Shown here: positions 2,494-15,906 of the stretch, piece by piece
How the letters are laid out: each line of letters begins with the position of its first letter
Position numbering within the stretch: position 1 is the stretch's first letter
NCBI RefSeq assembly: GCF_029633915.1
Contig: NZ_CP091092.1
Coordinates: forward strand, 1,302,001-1,366,000
Origin: Methanomicrobium antiquum
Lineage (GTDB): Archaea > Halobacteriota > Methanomicrobia > Methanomicrobiales > Methanomicrobiaceae
Reading direction: 5' to 3'
Length of the DNA stretch: 64,000 bases
Notes under the pieces: generated by a model
Databases searched by the model: none
Told to the model about the DNA's origin: nothing
Seen by the model: the letters and a program-made list of their open reading frames with translations, nothing else
Program-made: the position numbers and the translations under genes

Positions 2494-3114
2494 CCCTTAA
2501 CAATTCTTCGTGAAGCTGTGATTAACGCTATAGTTCATGCAGATTATTCACAGGAAGGGGCACCAATAAGGGTTTCTTTTTTTTATGACAGAATTGAGAT
2601 TGAAAACCCCGGAATTCTTCTCCCGGGAATGACAGTTGAGGATGTTAAGCAGGGTGTATCAAGGATAAGAAACCGTGTGATTGCCAGGGTTTTTAGTGAA
2701 CTTGATTTAATTGAGCAGTGGGGCAGCGGATTTCGCAGGATATTAAAGGTGGCTGAAAAACTGGGGCTTCCTGAGCCTGAGATTATAGAGATAGGAATGC
2801 GGATTCGTGTGACTGTTTATCTTGCTGAAAATATAGAAGTAAAGTCCTCCGGCAAAGTAACCGAACAAGTAACTCCGCAGGTAAAACGCCTTCTCTCATG
2901 TCTAAAGAAAAAACCACTCAGTGTTAAGGGTGCAATGGAAGTTCTCGGGCTTAATCACCGGCCTACTTTTGTATATGACTACTTAAAACCTGCAACCGAT
3001 GACGGATTTGTTGAGATGACACAGCCTGATTCACAAAAAAGCCCAACACAGAAATACAGACTGACAAAAAAAGGAAAGGCACTTCTTTTGAAAACAGATG
3101 GAGATGAGCAATGA
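2494..3114 (+). pseudogene. Truncated Schlafen/AlbA-type ATP-binding protein (C-terminal part)
   Basis: The frame opens after a stop at 2488 with TPLTILREAVINAIVHADYS, the conserved start of the GHKL-like HATPase domain (HATPase_c_4) of proteins otherwise described as RecG-like or AlbA_2/Schlafen-type putative regulators. It continues with IEIENPG, a GSGFRRI motif and a C-terminal winged helix ending at 3114. The N-terminal AlbA_2 domain that normally precedes this part is absent; upstream sequence belongs to an Orc1/Cdc6 remnant in the other orientation, so a rearrangement cut the gene. A GTG at 2518 could start a 198-residue product, but a function is unlikely. Confidence 0.6.
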
Positions 3115-3464
3115 TGACCCGGCTTTGTTTCGTAGCGATATACCGCTTTAGGAGTTATTATTCCTCTGACTGTACATAGGTGATCTTTTAAGATGGTATA
3201 ACCACCATTGTATCCCTGTTCTTTAATCTCTCTTAACAACCGTTTAGCGGAGATATTTGGGTATTCATCCAGTCTTTTGGAAATATATTCTTTGTATGGA
3301 TCAAGCTTGCTGCCTCAAATTCCCCGTTTCTTAGAGACAGGAATACTCTCCAGGTCAAGATATTTCCTCACTGTTCTTCTGTTATATCCGCTTCTTCTGG
3401 AAATTTCACTGATGTTTTTCCAGTCTTTTTTTAATTCCACTTCGTGTGCAATGTCCCGAATCAT
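3115..3464 (-). pseudogene. IS21-family IstA transposase fragment with internal stop
   Basis: From ATG 3464, behind a GGAGGA ribosome binding site, the frame reads MIRDIAHEVELKKDWKNISE and the helix-turn-helix ISRRSGYNRRTVRKYL, an IstA N-terminus. It meets an in-frame TGA after KKRGI, then continues as SKLDPYKEYISKRLDEYP, YNGGYTILKDHL and AVYRYETKPG, a signature of IS21 IstA proteins. The frame breaks off at about 3115, before the DDE catalytic core, where the Schlafen-type fragment ends. No IstB is present. This is a dead insertion-sequence remnant. Confidence 0.7.
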
Positions 3465-3831
3465 GAAAAAATCCTCCAATTTTAACATGTGACAACCCCG
3501 GTTTGCTTTTAACTGGAGTTTGATTTTTGAGCACTTTTAAACCGGCACACTTGAGCATTTTTAATACGGCTGTGACATTAAAGGATATCACAGGAAATCT
3601 TACACAGTAAAGGGGCATGACGTTAAGGCACATAGCAGAACCGGACCTAAAAAGAAAGTAAAAAAGACTGCAAATAAGACAGTAAAGAGAATATCAAAGG
3701 GAACCCGACAGGCTACCCTTTAACTTTTTGTAATCATATCTTAAGGTTAGATAAAATGACAGAAGTTGAGATAAAAAGAAATGCAGAAACATATCTTAAA
3801 AAAAATCCCTCAATTAAAAAGAACATTATTG

Positions 3832-5437
3832 CCTGACTTTGCCAGTGCAAAATAATAAGTGTGTTCTTAGTTAAGTTTGAATCGACAAAAATGCAGACAA
3901 AACTAAGAACTTATGAAATTGTGCCGAATGAAAATATATCCTTTCCTATTGGTACCATATCAGCAGTTGATAGATTATACAACATCCTGAATTTCTCTGA
4001 TATTATTGGAAAACATAAGCGCAATGGAATTGACATCAATAAATTAGTCAAAGCACTTGTTAGCTACAAGCTGAGTGAGAACTTCAGTATTAAAAAAGCT
4101 CATGAATGGATTAACAGGGACGAAGTTCTTGAAATATTTGATCTGGAATCATTTAGTGAAAGAACCCTTTACAGAGTACTTGAAGCAATTGGCGATAACA
4201 GGGAAGAAATCATATCAGATATTCAGGACGTTTTGTTTGAGAGATATAATTTTGAGCATACTGATATTAATCTGGATTGGACGAGCATTGTGCTTCATGG
4301 AAATGAAGCAAAACTAGGGAAATATGGTTACAGCCGGGATCACAGGCCTGATAAGAAGCAGATTACTGTTGGTGTGAGTGAACTTGCAGACCCGATTAAT
4401 ATTCCAATCGGCCTGACAATTGAACCTGGAAATACTAATGATCAGATTCATTTTTTGAAAACGTATTCACAGGTAGCATGGAAATTAAAATCAGATTCTC
4501 TTGTTATTTTTGATAAAGGAGCAAACAGCATTAAAAATGCTGCAATGATTCGGGCAGATAACATGCAGTACATAACTGCAAAGAAACTAAACAAAAGTGA
4601 TGATAGGATTATTGCAGAATTCTATTCATATAACCCTGAAGTAATAGATACTGAAAAGGGAGTTAAAGGAATTAAAATTATTAAACCTAACAGTATCAGT
4701 TATCTTTTCTTCTCAAAAAAGCTTCAGACTGAACAGCTTGAATCCAGAGCCAGAAAAGTCCTGAGGCAGATTAAAGAGGCAAAGGCAATACAGGAAAGCA
4801 TTGATAAACACAAAAAACTTCCAAAACGATTCCGGATTAACAATTTTTTAATAGAGGTAGATTATTCTATCCAGACAAAACTTGTTGATCTATCAGAAGA
4901 TGATGCGGTTAAACTGCTTGAAGAAAAGATAATAACTGGCAGGGAAGGATTTTTCTGCCTGAAATCAAGTAAGAATTTGACACTTTCTGAGGCTCTTTTG
5001 ACTTACCGAAAAAAAGATTCAATTGAGAAGATATTTCATTCACTGAAGAATGAAATTGAAATTAAACCGCTAAGAGTATGGACAGATAAAAGCATTTATG
5101 GAGCGTTAATCATAGGATTTATTGCCCAGTTGTTTGTTTCACTAATAAGATATGAAATACCTGAACTTAAGCATAAATCTACAAAATTCATCAAAAAATC
5201 ATTATCGAATTTGACAGTTACCATAGATTCATGGCAGCGAAAGACAAAAAAGTGCATTTACTCAAACTTTGATGCCATCAACACTCTGATTTTAAGGCTA
5301 AACTGGGCAGTTTCATAATTTGATGACGGAAAAATACTGAACTGTCAAATACGTTTTCCTGACAAAATTCTGAAAAAAAGTGATCAGGTATAGCTACCAG
5401 TCTGTTTATGGGTTTAGATCAAACTGGCAAACTTAGG
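3832..5437 (+). mobile_element. IS1634-like insertion sequence, copy 1
   Basis: The 1606-bp element has 16-bp imperfect terminal inverted repeats: left end CCTGACTTTGCCAGTG, right end (reverse complement) CCTAAGTTTGCCAGTT. It is flanked by an exact 6-bp target duplication TTATTG at 3826-3831 and 5438-5443. It carries one transposase gene. The same termini and gene order are found in a second copy at 57358-59018; the two transposases are clearly diverged, so neither is a very recent copy of the other. Element structure, single DDE gene and 6-bp duplication fit the IS1634/IS4 group. It interrupts a RelE-type toxin gene. Confidence 0.9.
3891..5318 (+). CDS. IS1634-like DDE transposase
   Basis: The 475-residue protein starts at ATG 3891 (MQTKLRTYE), matching the start of the second copy; a GTG at 3861 is an in-frame alternative. 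It has an N-terminal DUF4277-like region, then the catalytic pieces: the first aspartate in DWTSIVLHG followed by GYSRDHRPDKKQ, the second aspartate in VIFDKGANS, and the glutamate in YRKKDSIEKIFHSLKNEIE near residue 395. These are the D-D-E residues of IS4/IS1634-type cut-and-paste transposases with an inserted domain. The frame is intact, so the enzyme may be active. Family identification is strong; the exact IS name needs ISfinder. Confidence 0.9.
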   Translation: MQTKLRTYEIVPNENISFPIGTISAVDRLYNILNFSDIIGKHKRNGIDINKLVKALVSYKLSENFSIKKAHEWINRDEVLEIFDLESFSERTLYRVLEAIGDNREEIISDIQDVLFERYNFEHTDINLDWTSIVLHGNEAKLGKYGYSRDHRPDKKQITVGVSELADPINIPIGLTIEPGNTNDQIHFLKTYSQVAWKLKSDSLVIFDKGANSIKNAAMIRADNMQYITAKKLNKSDDRIIAEFYSYNPEVIDTEKGVKGIKIIKPNSISYLFFSKKLQTEQLESRARKVLRQIKEAKAIQESIDKHKKLPKRFRINNFLIEVDYSIQTKLVDLSEDDAVKLLEEKIITGREGFFCLKSSKNLTLSEALLTYRKKDSIEKIFHSLKNEIEIKPLRVWTDKSIYGALIIGFIAQLFVSLIRYEIPELKHKSTKFIKKSLSNLTVTIDSWQRKTKKCIYSNFDAINTLILRLNWAVS

Positions 5438-7214: not shown

Positions 7215-8930
7215 TCATAATTTAAAATCACTATTCAGTTCAGCTTCAAGTTCCCCGGAAACATTTTTTAGAATCTCTTTTCTTTTTGAGTCAGATATAT
7301 TCTTTTCAGCTAAATTAAGCATTTTTAACCCCCGTTCACCACTTTTAAAAATGCCTCTCTTCGCTTCAGAACAAACCTCAGGGCTTTCATCAAAAAGAGC
7401 TGCTATTAATTCTAAAAGAGCCTTTTGAGAGTTAATATCTGAGAGGACCCTTACTGCATTAAGCCTTTTATTTGGATTTTTGCTCTTCATCAAAACCTTA
7501 AGGGCACCTAAAGCATTCTGCCCCTCATGTTTTAAGCCGGTCCAGTTTTCATTCACAATATACTTTTTAATCCTTTCATTCTGCTCAATTCTCATTATTA
7601 TCCAATCAACAGCATCTGCATCTTTTAAATCCGACATACTTTCATATTTTTTTTGCAGTTCTAAAAGTGCGCTCTCTCCGGACTTTATAAGATATGCTTT
7701 TGCAATATCAGACACAACACTGCTCTTATCAAAAAGAGCCTCAATTAAAAAGGGCACAGATTCAGGTGCATTTATCTTTCCAATAGTTCTTACAGCATTA
7801 ACTTTAATGTCCTGACTAATGTCTTCACCATTATCAGACAATAAATCGGACAGATAAGCAACAGCACCTGCACCTTTTCTTTCAAGCGCATCCCATTTCC
7901 CGTCTGCAATGAATGATTTAATCTGTTCTTTTTCCTCAATTTCAAAGATAATTTCATCAAGAATCTTTTTTTCGGATTCATCATCAGAATTATTGGATAT
8001 TTTTCTTAACTGCGGCAAAACAAAAGATCCTTTATTCATTAAAGCCTCTTGTGATTCAAGCGCAATTTCATCATCCATATCAAAAAGAGCAAAAGCAAGA
8101 GACTTTATTGATTTCTCACTGTTAATTTTGATTATACACCTTAAGGCATCCTTTCGTTTTACAGAAAATAAATCACCCAAAATCTCTTCAAGCGGTCTAA
8201 GTGCTGTTTCACCATCATCCAAAACTTTATCCCAGTCGTTTTTTGCGATATGGAAATATACAAGATCGGTTTTTTCTTTTGGAACAACGCCTGCCTGTTC
8301 AAGACACCTTGCCGCAGTCTCCTTGTATGAATCTTTCTTATCACTTTTTAAAGCCTCAATTAGAGGTTTTGAGGCGCTCTTTCCATAAGCCTTTACTGCC
8401 AAAACTGAGGCCTCACGGATATTTTCCTCAGGGTCTTCAAAAAGGGATATAAAAACATCAATAGCTCTTTTATCATTTAAACCGGAAAGGCCCTTTACTG
8501 CTTCAAAACGCACTTCCGGGTTTTTGTCAAGAATTGCATAATTTAATATGTCAAATACTCTCTTATCAGAAGTCTTTGTAAAAGACTTAACAAAGATTTT
8601 TTTAACCTCAGAGTCTTTTTCGGTGTATATCCTGTCATAAAGAGCATTAACTCCTTCTTTATCATCAATTTCAGCAATCTTTTCGGCAGACAAAATTTTA
8701 AGATCAGAACTTCCGTAATTTAAAAGTCTGATAAGACCACGAATTCCGGGTCTGCCGATTTTAATTAAAATATCAGCAATAATATCCCTAAATGCCCTGT
8801 CAGCATTTCCAAGATAGCTTATTAAAGGTTCAACTGCAGGATCACCAATCTTTACAATTTTTCCAAAGTTCTTCTTCCTCTCAGTCTTATCATCACTTTT
8901 AAGGCCGACAATAAGCCTCGACACCTCCAT
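7215..8930 (-). CDS. HEAT-repeat protein (probably the 3' half of a larger gene)
   Basis: The 571-residue protein is built of HEAT/PBS-lyase-type repeats, such as DPAVEPLISYLGNADRAFRD, KNPEVRFEAVKGLSGL and SVPFLIEALFDKSSVV. Such alpha-solenoids act as protein interaction scaffolds; no catalytic domain is seen. The first 26 codons overlap the end of the upstream HEAT gene in another frame. No ribosome binding site precedes ATG 8930, and the frame reads sensibly upstream of it (ELELKKKIA) to a TAA at a run of five A near 8958-8962. Together this suggests that both genes are one protein of about 1,390 residues joined by a -1 shift or split by loss of one base. Confidence 0.7.
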   Translation of the reverse strand: MEVSRLIVGLKSDDKTERKKNFGKIVKIGDPAVEPLISYLGNADRAFRDIIADILIKIGRPGIRGLIRLLNYGSSDLKILSAEKIAEIDDKEGVNALYDRIYTEKDSEVKKIFVKSFTKTSDKRVFDILNYAILDKNPEVRFEAVKGLSGLNDKRAIDVFISLFEDPEENIREASVLAVKAYGKSASKPLIEALKSDKKDSYKETAARCLEQAGVVPKEKTDLVYFHIAKNDWDKVLDDGETALRPLEEILGDLFSVKRKDALRCIIKINSEKSIKSLAFALFDMDDEIALESQEALMNKGSFVLPQLRKISNNSDDESEKKILDEIIFEIEEKEQIKSFIADGKWDALERKGAGAVAYLSDLLSDNGEDISQDIKVNAVRTIGKINAPESVPFLIEALFDKSSVVSDIAKAYLIKSGESALLELQKKYESMSDLKDADAVDWIIMRIEQNERIKKYIVNENWTGLKHEGQNALGALKVLMKSKNPNKRLNAVRVLSDINSQKALLELIAALFDESPEVCSEAKRGIFKSGERGLKMLNLAEKNISDSKRKEILKNVSGELEAELNSDFKL

Positions 8931-11356
8931 TGCAATCTTCTTTTTAAGCTCAAGTTCTTTTTAATGATATCATCAATTTCATTTTGAGTAAGCTGTTTTT
9001 TAATATCCTTTGCGACTTTCTCCTCCTTATCAGAAGATGCATGATTGATTAAAGAATCAATTTCATCCTGTGTAAGCTTTTTTCCAAGAAGCTGGGTTGT
9101 CTTTTTGTTTTCAACATAAACAGATTTATGTAAAAGCTCATCAATCTCTGCCTGTGACAGCTTTTTGCCAAGCAGTTTTGAAGTATCCTGCCCGCGGGCT
9201 GATCTTGAATTTCTGATTAACTCATCAATCTCTTTTTGATCTAACTTTTTATTTAATAATCCAAGTGCATCAGTGTCATTTGCATTAAGAATTCTGTCCA
9301 AAAGCCTGTCTATTTCATAAAGACTTAATTTTCTTCTTAAAAGCTCGGCTGTTTCATGACTATATTCACGAATTTTCTCCCGCCCTTTTTCTATCGTTCT
9401 TTCAGTGAATATATCAAGAACAGTCCTTGCATTTCTTACAATCTCCTCATCTTCGTCTGACAGAAATTCTTTTACAAACGGAACAATCTTCATATCCTTC
9501 GTTTTTGAAAGAACACTTAGCATACCAAGTTTTTCCATTTTTGTTCCCTGAATACTTACGCGATGAACCTCCATCATCAAAAAATTGAACATAAAATTTG
9601 TGAATTTTAAAAGTGCGGTCATGGACTCATTTCTGACTGCCTCGGAAGTGTCATTAAGCGACCTTGTCGCATATGGAATGCCGGATGGATCACTAATCTC
9701 TCCCAGTGCAGTTAAACAGGATATTCTTACCAATTCATTTGGATGAAAAATCATATTCTGAATATGAGGAATGGCCTGATTACCCATTTTTGCAACCGCA
9801 TCAGCGGATTCAAATCTTACATTTGCATCAGGGTCTGAAAAATGCCGGACCAAAACAGGAATTGTTGTTGCATCCCTGAGCTTTCCAAGTGAATAGGCAC
9901 AAGCACGCCTGATTAATTCATCTTCATCCTCTATCTTTTCAGTTAACTTTGAAACTGCATTTCTCTCGTATATCTCACCAAGTGCCTCTATTGCGGCTAT
10001 ACGAATACTTTCATTCTCATCATCGGTTAAAAGCAGAAAAATATCTGAGGATTTCCTTCCAAATTTTTTCAGACTGTCAATTGCAACCACTCTTACTACT
10101 GAATCCGTATTAGAAAGGGCTTTTGAGAAAACTTCAGCCATATCCAAACCAAATGATGACAATAAAAGTTTTTCTTTCCAGTAATCGGGAGAGTTTAATT
10201 CATAATTGCTTTTATCTCCATTTAAAAATTCATCTCCATTTTTCTCTTCACTCTTTGCCTTTTCTTCCCTGATATATGTCAGTGCCTCATATGCACCATT
10301 TCGAATTGCTTCATCTTTGTCCTTTGAAGCATTTTTTATAGCATCTATACCCGGCTCTCCAAGAGAATATAATAGTTTAAAAGCATTTTCACGTCTTTCG
10401 AAGAAATCATCACCAAGAAATTCAATTAAAGAGGGAATTGCCTTTTCGCCCAGCCTTTCAACTTCCCTGTAATTTCCGCGAAGCATCAGGGAAAATATTT
10501 TTTCAGTGTATTTTTGCGGTTTCCAGCCTGCTTTTTCAAGTGACCAGGCGGCTTCAACCCTTACATCAGGGTCAGGGTCATTCATGCACTGAACAAGAAC
10601 CGGATATAATGAAACTGCTCTTTTTTCTGCAATTGCTGATATGGCAGAAAGTCTGACACTGCTGTTTTTATCATTTAGGAGATGCATTAAAAGCGGTATT
10701 GTGCTCTCTCCCTCAATTTTGGCAAGAACAGAAGCTATTTTTGACTTCATGTCAGAATCTGCAATTTCTATTCCAAATTTGAGCGCTGGAACTGCAAAAG
10801 GCCCCAGTTTTCCAATTGCAGTCCAGTCTTCTTTTACCAGATAATAAAATGCCATCTCAGCATTGTTTGACGATTTCCAATTTACTGCATCCAGTGATTT
10901 TACAGCCTGTTCACGAACTTCTTTATCGGTGTCATTAAGAAGATTAAGAAGAATAACAGATGAATTTTTATCATTTCTGCCAATGTATTCCAATGCAAGA
11001 GCAACACCCAGCTTTGATTTTTTATTGTTGTCTCTGGCCAAAGCAGTCAGTGATTCATAAACAGGAACTCCCTGTCTTGCCATATGCCCGATGGTTCTTG
11101 CGGCTCCGTCTTTTGCGTTGTCACTGCCGGATTTTAGGAGATTTAAAAAAGTATTCAGACTTTCTTTGTTTTCTTTACTAATTGAGCCAAGTACTTCAGC
11201 CGCTCCTGCACGAACCTGTTCGCTACTGCTATTAAGAGCTTTTAGAAGCGGAACTGATGCTTTGTTTCCAGCCTGTTTAAGTTTTTTTATCGCCTCATTT
11301 CTTTCTTTTTTGCCGGAAGAATTAAGAGATGAGATTAAAAAATCAATTTCTTCCAC
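8852..11356 (-). CDS. Large HEAT-repeat protein with five FliM-like EID motifs
   Basis: The 834-residue protein starts MEEIDFLISSL and contains many HEAT repeats (for example DPDPDVRVEAAWSLEKAGW and DPDANVRFESADAVAKMG) through about residue 660. From about residue 670 to 800 it carries five copies, spaced about 31 residues, of a motif of the form LL-x-KKL-S/T-Q-x-EID-x-L-I/L, very like the N-terminal peptide LSQxEIDALL of bacterial FliM. The last 34 residues after KKN are basic and unlike the rest, and the neighbouring frame carries the natural continuation, so the end is probably a frameshift product. Role unknown; a scaffold that gathers several copies of one partner protein is a reasonable inference. 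Confidence 0.7.
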   Translation of the reverse strand: MEEIDFLISSLNSSGKKERNEAIKKLKQAGNKASVPLLKALNSSSEQVRAGAAEVLGSISKENKESLNTFLNLLKSGSDNAKDGAARTIGHMARQGVPVYESLTALARDNNKKSKLGVALALEYIGRNDKNSSVILLNLLNDTDKEVREQAVKSLDAVNWKSSNNAEMAFYYLVKEDWTAIGKLGPFAVPALKFGIEIADSDMKSKIASVLAKIEGESTIPLLMHLLNDKNSSVRLSAISAIAEKRAVSLYPVLVQCMNDPDPDVRVEAAWSLEKAGWKPQKYTEKIFSLMLRGNYREVERLGEKAIPSLIEFLGDDFFERRENAFKLLYSLGEPGIDAIKNASKDKDEAIRNGAYEALTYIREEKAKSEEKNGDEFLNGDKSNYELNSPDYWKEKLLLSSFGLDMAEVFSKALSNTDSVVRVVAIDSLKKFGRKSSDIFLLLTDDENESIRIAAIEALGEIYERNAVSKLTEKIEDEDELIRRACAYSLGKLRDATTIPVLVRHFSDPDANVRFESADAVAKMGNQAIPHIQNMIFHPNELVRISCLTALGEISDPSGIPYATRSLNDTSEAVRNESMTALLKFTNFMFNFLMMEVHRVSIQGTKMEKLGMLSVLSKTKDMKIVPFVKEFLSDEDEEIVRNARTVLDIFTERTIEKGREKIREYSHETAELLRRKLSLYEIDRLLDRILNANDTDALGLLNKKLDQKEIDELIRNSRSARGQDTSKLLGKKLSQAEIDELLHKSVYVENKKTTQLLGKKLTQDEIDSLINHASSDKEEKVAKDIKKQLTQNEIDDIIKKNLSLKRRLQWRCRGLLSALKVMIRLRGRRTLEKL

Positions 11357-11602: not shown

Positions 11603-11986
11603 TGACTCTTCGCCATATTTCTGATCACCCTAATTTGGAATTGATTTGTCGCGATGTACACAATATCCCCGGGAACCGGAGGGGCTTGCCCCCCTCCGGT
11701 GACCTATCGTAAGCGGGGTGGGTTTAAGGGAGGGGCCTGTCCCCTCCCTTGCTAATAATCGATTATCTTTGATTGTCTTCCAGTCAAGGCCAGTAACCTA
11801 AGAAACTGATGAAATCTTCCATATCAATAATCTTAAAAGCCCACAAATGAGAACATAGATGTGAATGCAGAAATGCATTCCCTCCATTTGTAATGTTTAT
11901 TGGACATATCATCACAATTTGAGGTTATTCTCTAAGTTGTTTTCTTTTTGGATAGTCCTAACTTTCAGAAAGATGGAGAAGAACCA
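11603..11986. mobile_element. 384-bp MITE-like element, copy 1
   Basis: This non-coding element is nearly identical to 56962-57347. The left end GACTCTTCGCCATATTTCTG and the reverse complement of the right end (TGGTTCTTCTCCATCTTTCT) form an imperfect terminal inverted repeat of about 23 bp. It is flanked by A runs compatible with a 6-bp duplication AAAAAA (11597-11602 and 11987-11992). The interior holds two GC-rich hairpins (about 11680-11700 and 11728-11750), conspicuous in AT-rich DNA. No ORF is present, so movement would need a transposase from elsewhere. The remaining intergenic sequence to 12146 is T-rich with nothing else recognisable. Confidence 0.75.
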
Positions 11987-13434: not shown

Positions 13435-15636
13435 TCAGGTCTGAATTTTGCCTTTTACAATCGAAATTCCGGACGAGGCAGCAGAGTTGTCGGTATTGAA
13501 TTCCCTAAACTGTCTCAAAGAGACTGTCAAATCTCTTGTGAATGCAAAATAACCAATTTGTGAATTTTTGCACAAATTCATAGCCATATCCATAAGTCCT
13601 CTTGGATCAGGCCGTGCTTCCCCAAGCCAGATATGGAAAATATTTCCTCCGTCAACAATAGGGAAAAAGACATGCTCAATATCCATTCTTTTCGTAAGAG
13701 AAATATCAGCGCCGGGAGTTACATGAGTCCCGTTTGTATAATAAATCGGAAGATCAAAAGTTGTTCCAATTTTCTCAAAGGCAGATTCAAGATCACCTTT
13801 TATGACCGCTTTTGCATAATTTGTAAATCTTGAGTCAATAAGATCTGCGACACTAAAACGCTGTCCGGTAGTCTCTGCAGGTGTTCTTGCAAGAGCAATT
13901 GTCATATGATGCTTTCTTGAAATCTCTTTAGCATACATTTCAAGTTCAGTCATTGCACGAACTGCCAGAACAAATGCTTCACGGCTTTCATGAATCTGAG
14001 AACCTGTGTGATGTTGAACCATCTCATTTACACCGACAATTCCGATTGTATAGACAAGCCCTTCAAGATCGACTGCTACCGGCCCTCTTTCTTCTCCGTT
14101 TGGAGAATTTGGATCTTTTGGACACTGCATTGCAAAAGGCATTCTTCCCTTTGCACGAATATTATCCATCCACCTTCTCTTTATCTTAAAGACCTCGGTT
14201 GCAACATCCATCAATTTTTTAAGCTCTGCAAAAAGCCTTTCATCATCTCCTTCGGCTTTATATGCAGCTCTTGGACAGTTGATTGAGATAACCTGCCATG
14301 AACCCATGGAGAAATGTTTTCCATCTTTGAAGTACATTTTTTCGTCAAAGTAGTCATCATCATCAGCCATTGATGAAAACTGGTACGCACAACACTGATA
14401 GCAGGAAATACCCTCACCTGCACCTCTGTATGCAGGAATCTGGTTGTCATAATATGGTGTTCCAAACTTAGATGCAAGTTCAAAGGTCATCAGATACAAA
14501 TCACGATATGTCGGAATGTCCGGATTTTGCCTGTTAAAATCCTCATCCTCGTCCATAAAGTCCGGTTCAATGCTGATTTCAGGTTTTGGGAAATTAAAAG
14601 GCTTTCCCCAGTAATCCCCCTGAAGCATAACATCCATTAACGCCTTGAATAAAAGTCGGACTTCCTTTTCAAATTCTCCATATTGCCTTAAAGGCGCCTG
14701 CTTTCCATCCCAGACTTTCCCTTTGTAAACGCAGGGTTTATCACGCCAGAGCTTTGGAACTCCGGGAGATAACTGAACAGAAGAGAAGACTACCTGACCT
14801 CCGCGTGCAACCATCATCTGTGTCATTTCATAGACAAACATCTGCATATGCTGTTTTATACACTCGTAGTCTTTCCCTTCAAAATAAGGAGCAAGGAAGG
14901 TCAAAAAATTATAATATCCCTGACCACCGGCAAAGTTTGTCTGTGCACTTCCAAGAGCCTTTACAGCATGTAAAATTGCAACCTCCGGCCTTTTTGCAGG
15001 TCCAGCTACAGATGCCTTTGTTCCATTTCCATCCGGCATCAGCCCATAATAAAAGAAATACCTGAGATCCCAGTCCTGACAGAAAGGACGGGTACCAAAG
15101 TATTCAAGATCATGTATATGCATATCGCCTGATAAATGAAAATCTGCAAGTTCGGGCGGCATCTGGAGGAGATATTGTTCTTTGCTTATCTTGTCAGCCT
15201 TTTTCTTATGGGACGTTTCAGCATTTTCCTGAAGATTTGCATTGTCCTTTGCTTCAAAACCTCTTCCAACATCTATTAAATGAGCATCATAAACAGGTGT
15301 TCCAACTCTTGTTGACACATTTCTGTATGGAATTAGATCTTTCTCAAGAAGAGAGGTATTTACAATTTCACGAATCAGAGGGCCTGATAAAAATTTTAAA
15401 TTTAATTTTAGTATTTTTTGTTCAACACTGAATGCGATACTTCTTGCAGTCTCCTCATCAATCGGATCTCCGCCATAAAACTCTTCAACAAGTTTTGTCT
15501 CTTCAAGAAGCTGGCGGACAATTCTGTCCCTGTCCCATTCAAGAATCAGTCCGCGTGATGTGCGGACTTTTGGGAGAGGAGATACAGTAAAGCCTTCGAG
15601 AGTCTGCTGCAGGGATTTTTTATCTTCCCGAACCAT
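13435..15636 (-). CDS. nrdD: Anaerobic ribonucleoside-triphosphate reductase without the usual glycyl-radical tail
   Basis: The 733-residue protein has an N-terminal ATP-cone (VRTSRGLILEWDRDRIVRQL) and the class III reductase barrel (MHIHDLEYF, GGQGYYNFLTF, RGAGEGISCYQCC, SINCPRAAY, GSQIHESREAF). Class III enzymes reduce NTPs to dNTPs under anoxia. It ends with IGYFAFTRDLTV, where relatives continue with a four-cysteine zinc site and an RxxGY glycyl-radical motif. Here the sequence turns to SLRQFREFNTDNSAASSG and stops, and no cysteine-rich continuation is visible downstream in another frame. It is one codon from a glutaredoxin-like gene upstream, so reduction by that protein is likely. No nrdG activase lies in the window. 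Confidence 0.85.
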   Translation of the reverse strand: MVREDKKSLQQTLEGFTVSPLPKVRTSRGLILEWDRDRIVRQLLEETKLVEEFYGGDPIDEETARSIAFSVEQKILKLNLKFLSGPLIREIVNTSLLEKDLIPYRNVSTRVGTPVYDAHLIDVGRGFEAKDNANLQENAETSHKKKADKISKEQYLLQMPPELADFHLSGDMHIHDLEYFGTRPFCQDWDLRYFFYYGLMPDGNGTKASVAGPAKRPEVAILHAVKALGSAQTNFAGGQGYYNFLTFLAPYFEGKDYECIKQHMQMFVYEMTQMMVARGGQVVFSSVQLSPGVPKLWRDKPCVYKGKVWDGKQAPLRQYGEFEKEVRLLFKALMDVMLQGDYWGKPFNFPKPEISIEPDFMDEDEDFNRQNPDIPTYRDLYLMTFELASKFGTPYYDNQIPAYRGAGEGISCYQCCAYQFSSMADDDDYFDEKMYFKDGKHFSMGSWQVISINCPRAAYKAEGDDERLFAELKKLMDVATEVFKIKRRWMDNIRAKGRMPFAMQCPKDPNSPNGEERGPVAVDLEGLVYTIGIVGVNEMVQHHTGSQIHESREAFVLAVRAMTELEMYAKEISRKHHMTIALARTPAETTGQRFSVADLIDSRFTNYAKAVIKGDLESAFEKIGTTFDLPIYYTNGTHVTPGADISLTKRMDIEHVFFPIVDGGNIFHIWLGEARPDPRGLMDMAMNLCKNSQIGYFAFTRDLTVSLRQFREFNTDNSAASSGISIVKGKIQT

Positions 15637-15639
15637 TTA

Positions 15640-15906
15640 TCATTCACCCTTGCACAAGGTGAGGACTTCGTCTTTTACACAACCGCTTTGGAAAAGCTCT
15701 TTTGATGTAAGAAATGTTTCATTCACCTGAAGGACAGGTGCCTCTCTTACAAAGACGTTGTTTAATCGAAGTTCTGTCATATTTGCCGGTTCTGCAAGGT
15801 CAAGCTCGTCATAAGAAAAACCGTTTTCCTTAAGATAATCCTTAAGCAATTCACAGTTCGGGCAGTTTTCAAGAGAATATACAACTATTTTCAGATTATT
15901 GGACAC
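15640..15906 (-). CDS. Glutaredoxin-like redox protein, partner of NrdD
   Basis: The 88-residue protein has a thioredoxin fold beginning VVYSLENCPNCELLKDYL with a CPNC active site at the usual place, and the cis-proline region EAPVLQV. It ends three bases before the nrdD start, so the two genes form one transcript. In some archaeal class III ribonucleotide reductases a glutaredoxin of this kind delivers electrons, itself reduced by a ferredoxin-dependent disulfide reductase; this is known of the family and inferred here from the gene pair. A further CVKDEVLTLC cysteine pair near the C-terminus is not part of the canonical site. Confidence 0.8.
   Translation of the reverse strand: MSNNLKIVVYSLENCPNCELLKDYLKENGFSYDELDLAEPANMTELRLNNVFVREAPVLQVNETFLTSKELFQSGCVKDEVLTLCKGE

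Follow-up and report, generated by a model that had tools for sequence, protein, structure and literature searches.

A putative split class III ribonucleotide reductase, with its glycyl-radical domain on a separate small protein, in Methanomicrobium antiquum and its order

The window nrdD gene encodes a reductase core that stops short of the glycyl-radical domain

We analyzed a stretch of 64,000 nucleotides of the Methanomicrobium antiquum chromosome (NZ_CP091092.1, positions 1,302,001 to 1,366,000; G000:C1:1302001-1366000; hereafter, the window). The genome is a single contig of 2,438,126 bases and is 99.7% complete. The window carries an nrdD gene with the following features (coordinates are those of the window):

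13435..15636, minus strand: nrdD, 733 aa, lacking a glycyl-radical domain; putative large subunit (core) of a split class III ribonucleotide reductase (NRDD, 448.6 bits; NCBIfam NrdD, 480 bits)
15334..15570, minus strand: weak ATP-cone-like N-terminal region, residues 23-101 (PF03477, 12.5 bits, below the cut-off of 25.8)
15079..15081, minus strand: invariant Cys186, aligned with the cysteine of TKSLTC in Prevotella copri NrdD
14389..14403, minus strand: CYQCC, residues 412-416, with invariant cysteines (29 of 29 aligned rows); likely the finger-loop double-cysteine motif
13438..13521, minus strand: short C-terminal extension, residues 706-733, which in alignments occupies the start of the radical domain of fused relatives (low model confidence there)
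15640..15906, minus strand: glutaredoxin/NrdH-like protein directly upstream of nrdD, likely the reductant (PF00462, 31.2 bits, cut-off 22.9)

The NrdD scores compare with cut-offs of 26.2 (NRDD, PF13597, Pfam scan) and 326 (NCBIfam), and by the NRDD match the protein has the catalytic core of a class III reductase. The matches end at positions 510 of 562 and 529 of 581, respectively, both starting at position 1, and the last ~52 profile positions, which hold the zinc site and the radical glycine, are missing. The first-pass annotation, made from the sequence, had reported a protein without the zinc site and the glycyl-radical motif that terminates within 30 residues of YFAFTRDLTV. The profile coverage bears out the former, and the distance from that motif to the C-terminus is 28 residues. 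The ATP-cone profile scores 38.3 bits in a viral split homologue (L247, described below). The role of Cys186 we take from what is known of the family. The NrdH match of the glutaredoxin-like protein is weak (28.1 bits against an NCBIfam cut-off of 85.75); a glutaredoxin adjoins nrdD in L247 as well. A structure model of NrdD, of middling quality (pLDDT 64.2, built from six rows), superimposes on residues 120-675 of P. copri NrdD (8p2s) with a Z score of 27.0 and an rmsd of 3.0 over 454 aligned residues.

Elsewhere in the window are a gene for an 834-aa HEAT-repeat protein (8852-11356) and, by eye, a G+C-rich stretch resembling an inverted repeat within an A+T-rich intergenic region (11660-11760).

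The short NrdD is shared across the order

All 49 NrdD loci that we read from the order of M. antiquum (L001, L003-L031, and L125-L143) encode a protein that ends 21-31 residues past the FTRDL/IT motif, and none of them has a glycyl-radical domain in the same chain as the core (8 of the 49 endings, which lay outside the pattern match, were read by hand). The first-pass annotation was correct that the 280 bp downstream of the window gene hold no sign of the missing domain: R[VI][TS]GY is absent from the NrdD tail and from up to 900 nt downstream, in three forward frames, at all 49 loci. Because the ending is the same everywhere, a sequencing error or frameshift is ruled out as the cause of the short protein. 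In a sample of 40 genomes, M. antiquum included, an NrdD match was present in 39, the exception being an assembly of 82% completeness (G014); three matches (G002, G003, and G009) were partial only. Full-length matches across the order are 76-90% identical to the window protein. Given these identities and the common ending, the short NrdD is, as judged from sequence conservation, a conserved form and not a decaying or broken gene.

In some relatives, NrdD open frames reach about 1,170-1,727 aa owing to long in-frame insertions at two sites (window NrdD residues about 185-189 and 409-418); one of these begins at the conserved Cys186 (L030:1-3144, G011). LAGLIDADG_3 scored over its Pfam cut-off and Intein_splicing just below, and the insertions are likely inteins. 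The two insertion-bearing loci among the 49 (L030 and L031) retain the usual ending. One genome has two NrdD copies ~15 kb apart (G138:C1:285049-302895).

A 120-residue protein encoded elsewhere carries the missing domain

A further good match to the NrdD profile in the M. antiquum genome covers profile positions 540-580 (G000:C1:2089907-2090050, plus strand, E = 1.4e−13) and lies in the following gene:

G000:C1:2089703-2090065, plus strand (outside the window): small radical-domain protein, 120 aa (NrdD-profile match)

This gene is located on the same chromosome, 772 kb from nrdD. Its product matches PF13597 at positions 503-562 of 562 (54.3 bits, cut-off 26.2, 1.3e−14), which complements the coverage of positions 1-510 by the window protein, and NCBIfam NrdD at positions 527-580 (7.3e−14). 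The genome therefore encodes an NrdD-type glycyl-radical domain in trans. The C-terminal half of the small protein contains CPLCG, CPECG, and SRVTGYLADVAGWNQGKQQELKDR, which resemble the NrdD zinc site and radical loop: four cysteines (C71, C74, C79, and C82) are followed by S91-R-V-T-G95-Y (SRVTGY). The additional N-terminal half is Cys-rich and ribbon-like, with CHTC, CPCCG, and further cysteines. Across an alignment of 35 sequences (28 cellular and 7 viral), cysteines 29, 32, 41, 44, 53, 60, 71, 74, 79, and 82 are invariant, as are S91, R92, T94, G95, and Y96.

By sequence, the small protein matches residues 697-736 of P. copri NrdD (8p23). The study of that enzyme places its core at residues 123-671 and its radical domain, with Gly711, at 676-739 (PMC11226230). 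Since our core model corresponds to residues 120-675, the break between NrdD and the small protein is at the domain boundary between the catalytic core and the glycyl-radical domain. A structure model of the small protein, made from the 91% identical Methanomicrobium mobile copy (L165; 120 residues, pLDDT 77.6), retrieved nothing at E < 0.001 with Foldseek (lowest E 1.6; at rank 22, an NrdD chain with E 3.7) and nothing above Z 2.6 with VIA-align, so that the modeled fold speaks neither for nor against the assignment.

The Pfam matches of the small protein do not include the glycyl-radical family PF01228, which has no hit over its cut-off anywhere in the genome. Two candidates were rejected: a PF01228 match below the cut-off (12.2 bits, G000:C1:1709006-1709170) in a 264-aa open reading frame (ORF) that lacks the motif, and a third, weak NrdD-profile match (14.8 bits, 1369135-1369230) in a 542-aa ORF that by eye encodes an ABC-transporter-like ATP-binding protein.

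The ~5-kb surroundings of the small gene hold a common gene set, at varying distances, in 21 of 21 loci (M. antiquum and 20 relatives). With domains assigned from the M. antiquum genome, these neighbors are deoxyhypusine synthase, orotidine-phosphate decarboxylase, CbiZ, an OB-fold protein (presumably replication protein A-like), and another small protein. The proximity of a pyrimidine gene and of a probable DNA-binding protein is weakly in keeping with a role in DNA precursor supply. A 185-aa ORF, HEAT-like by eye, also lies near the small gene in M. antiquum.

The two halves are kept and lost together

The small protein is present in all 40 genomes of the sample described above (best match in each, 64-100% identity). 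In a phylum-wide sample of 295 genomes at least 90% complete, 75 belong to the order; 67 of these have both genes and 8 have neither, NrdD being found in M. antiquum and in all 66 relatives with the small protein. Another 99 genomes without a match fell outside the listing and were taken as outside the order, because the listing is sorted by kinship and had already reached phylum level. The 8 genomes without either half all belong to one genus (g21, in the same family, f6, as g14), so the joint absence counts as one loss event; it is the pattern expected of a two-part enzyme. All 8 retain a class I/II-type reductase (PF02867).

A PF02867 reductase, which we infer to be class II, is also encoded in the M. 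antiquum genome, and therefore NrdD is not the only route to deoxyribonucleotides there. The family was detected in 36 of 40 genomes of one sample and 48 of 58 of another. Of the 67 genomes that have both halves, 8 yielded no match to it (G038, G150, G172, G218, G250, G275, G284, and G290), and neither did G005 or the less complete G002 (89%) and G003 (74%). Some PF02867-negative genomes are metagenome assemblies, and single absences may therefore be gaps; G275 is a complete chromosome (one contig, 1,949,073 bases). Where both halves are present and no class I/II reductase is found, deoxyribonucleotides should come solely from the split enzyme, as far as gene content indicates.

Some PF02867 open frames are about 1,050-1,123 aa long (e.g., G025, G030, G168, G206, G226, and G230) and probably also carry inteins. 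At two loci, a stand-alone radical-domain gene adjoins a PF02867 gene (L122:4834-5163 in G082, and G009:C112:3552-3908).

A candidate activase and electron supply

Only one radical-SAM protein of M. antiquum scores over the cut-off of the NrdG2 model TIGR02495 (L068:1489-2247; 153.5 bits, cut-off 131.15), and it probably acts on the split NrdD. This assignment is supported by viral contig L245, in which a fused NrdD is followed by an activase of the same NrdG2 kind and a glutaredoxin. Ferredoxin:thioredoxin-reductase-like proteins (PF02943), which may be an electron source, are encoded in L247, overlapping the end of the viral nrdD, and in G258, near a radical-domain gene that stands alone (L119:3944-4228).

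Viral contigs carry the putative split enzyme or only its small protein

Using the window NrdD as query, we found five loci in viral contigs, four with a fused tail and a fifth, L247 (IMGVR_UViG_3300044712_001062), in which the enzyme is split and both halves lie in one gene string:

2502-2795: small radical-domain protein (NRDD positions 508-562)
2795-3013: glutaredoxin
3010-5022: truncated NrdD, ending YFAFTKDFTVCNNAYRKY (NRDD positions 1-513)
5006-5275: ferredoxin:thioredoxin-reductase-like protein (PF02943; ferredoxin:disulfide-reductase-like)

In a tree of the cores (29 rows), the viral split NrdD sits on a very long branch as the sister of the 17 split NrdDs from cells (90/95, not starred). 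The tree allows a single origin of the split, viral form included, through one fission that would have occurred before the order diversified.

Scanning with the small-protein alignment gave 10 viral loci, of which 3 are fused NrdDs and 7 are stand-alone ORFs (L249-L255; L254 and L255 encode an identical small protein). In L251, L253, and L254, the small gene has terminase or portal genes nearby. No NrdD was found in these 7 contigs, two of which were covered whole (7.6 kb) and the others in part. A narrow-pattern alignment scan (A1) returned 4 viral loci, none of them a contig with only the small protein, where a distant NrdD is possible. The phage and plasmid collections contain no stand-alone small protein annotated as such; one match in a Prevotella record (H25) has 27.5% identity over 93% of the query and no annotated feature.

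Fused NrdD and extra radical-domain proteins outside the order

Among the matches listed from the phylum sample, fused NrdD is the common state. Ten genomes outside the order (seven of genus g51, G190, G283, and G082) encode a separate small radical protein (open frame of 88-131 aa) in addition to a fused NrdD, and these small proteins, five of which were read (L119-L123), are candidates for a spare part of the YfiD type. In G082, the end of the small protein's domain appears by eye to be lost. The small gene of G283 adjoins a Prim-Pol primase gene, which suggests that it resides on a mobile element. The fused nrdD of G298 has an internal stop. In g51 genomes (L108-L110 and L112-L114), the fused NrdD is accompanied by another, distantly related NrdD (610-624 aa; 32-38% identity in aligned stretches) whose own tail is intact.

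Proposed explanation and its alternatives

We propose that the window NrdD and the 120-aa protein are the core and radical subunits of one class III reductase, with the glycyl radical carried by a chain of its own, a reading to which we assign a probability of about 0.9. The escape clause of the first-pass annotation, in which a small protein of its own provides the radical domain, matches what the genome encodes. The searches that it suggested reveal no second nrdD in the genome, the same NrdD ending in close relatives, the stand-alone glycyl-radical protein, and an nrdG-type activase. Its expectation that the enzyme should be inactive is unsupported, because the short NrdD is kept throughout the order and is, in some genomes, the only reductase found. 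From these data we infer a physical complex of the two proteins, a radical on G95, and an active split enzyme. The core would contribute the barrel and active site, and the small subunit would dock at the usual place of the fused domain. The NrdG2-like activase, encoded elsewhere in the genome, would set the radical on G95; during catalysis, the radical would pass to a core cysteine and back, the CYQCC cysteines being invariant, and the neighboring glutaredoxin would re-reduce the core. A detachable domain is plausible because the radical domain of P. copri NrdD is itself mobile in the presence of dATP, its ordering following ATP or dATP (PMC11226230). Several observations weigh against the two-subunit proposal: the core and small genes are far apart in M. 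antiquum and are not co-transcribed, the joint absence of the halves amounts to a single event, the model of the small protein retrieved no significant fold match, and a class I/II-type reductase gives most genomes another route besides the split enzyme.

That reductase also underlies the view that the truncated NrdD is an inactive remnant, with class II NrdJ making all deoxyribonucleotides and the small protein doing another job. Its presence in M. antiquum and most relatives agrees with this view, but full-length NrdD matches are 76-90% identical across the order with invariant cysteines, and PF02867 is missing from G005 and from 8 of the 67 genomes in which both halves occur, the complete chromosome of G275 among these 8; we regard a remnant as very improbable. 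We give an equally small chance to the idea that the small protein, like YfiD of pyruvate formate-lyase, repairs an oxygen-damaged enzyme and is not a standing subunit. A stand-alone protein consisting only of a radical domain is the form of YfiD and Y06I (PMC8683613), and the small proteins beside fused NrdD in 10 genomes outside the order are in line with it; within the order, however, it is contradicted, as there is no intact NrdD to repair at any of the 49 loci. Least probable of all, we think, is that the small protein partners another radical enzyme such as NrdJ. The adjacency of small and PF02867 genes in G009 and G082 speaks for such a pairing, but 8 genomes have PF02867 without the small protein, 8 of 67 have the small protein without PF02867, and M. 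antiquum has no PF01228 match over the cut-off.

Beyond the two-subunit enzyme itself, we conjecture, at somewhat less than even odds, that the radical subunit is mobile and can be exchanged: methanogen viruses would carry the small subunit only and drive the host's core NrdD in infection, and some Methanosarcinaceae would keep an extra copy as a spare for their fused NrdD.

Relation to known systems and implications

The putative split enzyme shares the core fold and profile, the radical-domain sequence, and an activase-type gene with canonical class III NrdD and NrdG (phage T4, Thermotoga maritima, P. copri, and the fused NrdD of Methanosarcinales). It differs in that the core terminates past the final strand of the barrel and the radical domain, with an extra Cys-rich stretch, is on a separate chain encoded at a distant locus. 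In class I NrdA/NrdB, the radical is likewise on a separate subunit, where a ferritin-like protein bears a tyrosyl/metal radical; NrdB is unrelated to the small protein described here. YfiD/GrcA and T4 Y06I, the spare parts of pyruvate formate-lyase, are also small, stand-alone radical-domain duplicates and also virus-borne, but the sequence of the M. antiquum protein is of the NrdD kind. Moreover, according to PMC8683613, the enzyme they repair has a radical domain itself, whereas NrdD in the order has none; the same source speculates on a spare-part role for other glycyl-radical enzymes. The split class II NrdJa/NrdJb of Pseudomonas similarly has the C-terminal part of the reductase on its own chain, but it is class II, in one operon, and its small chain serves disulfide exchange and not radical storage (PMC4520616). 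That 2015 paper describes NrdJ as the sole ribonucleotide reductase that is split in a non-viral organism, and PMC4390871 and PMC2795772 tabulate the class III radical glycine within the catalytic enzyme. In the open-licence PMC literature, as far as its texts were accessible and with subscription journals mostly outside it, we found no description of a split class III reductase.

These comparisons correct an easy misreading, as nrdD genes of this type would be called truncated. The split enzyme would offer a natural system, controllable in stoichiometry, for radical-domain docking and activase recognition, and would let one ask whether dATP regulation acts on the binding of the radical domain. 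If the radical subunit is indeed exchangeable, class III reductase would be modular, with a radical subunit that is shared and can be traded. Throughout an archaeal order, the radical of the class III reductase seems to reside on a small subunit of its own, and in some members this enzyme seems to be the sole reductase.
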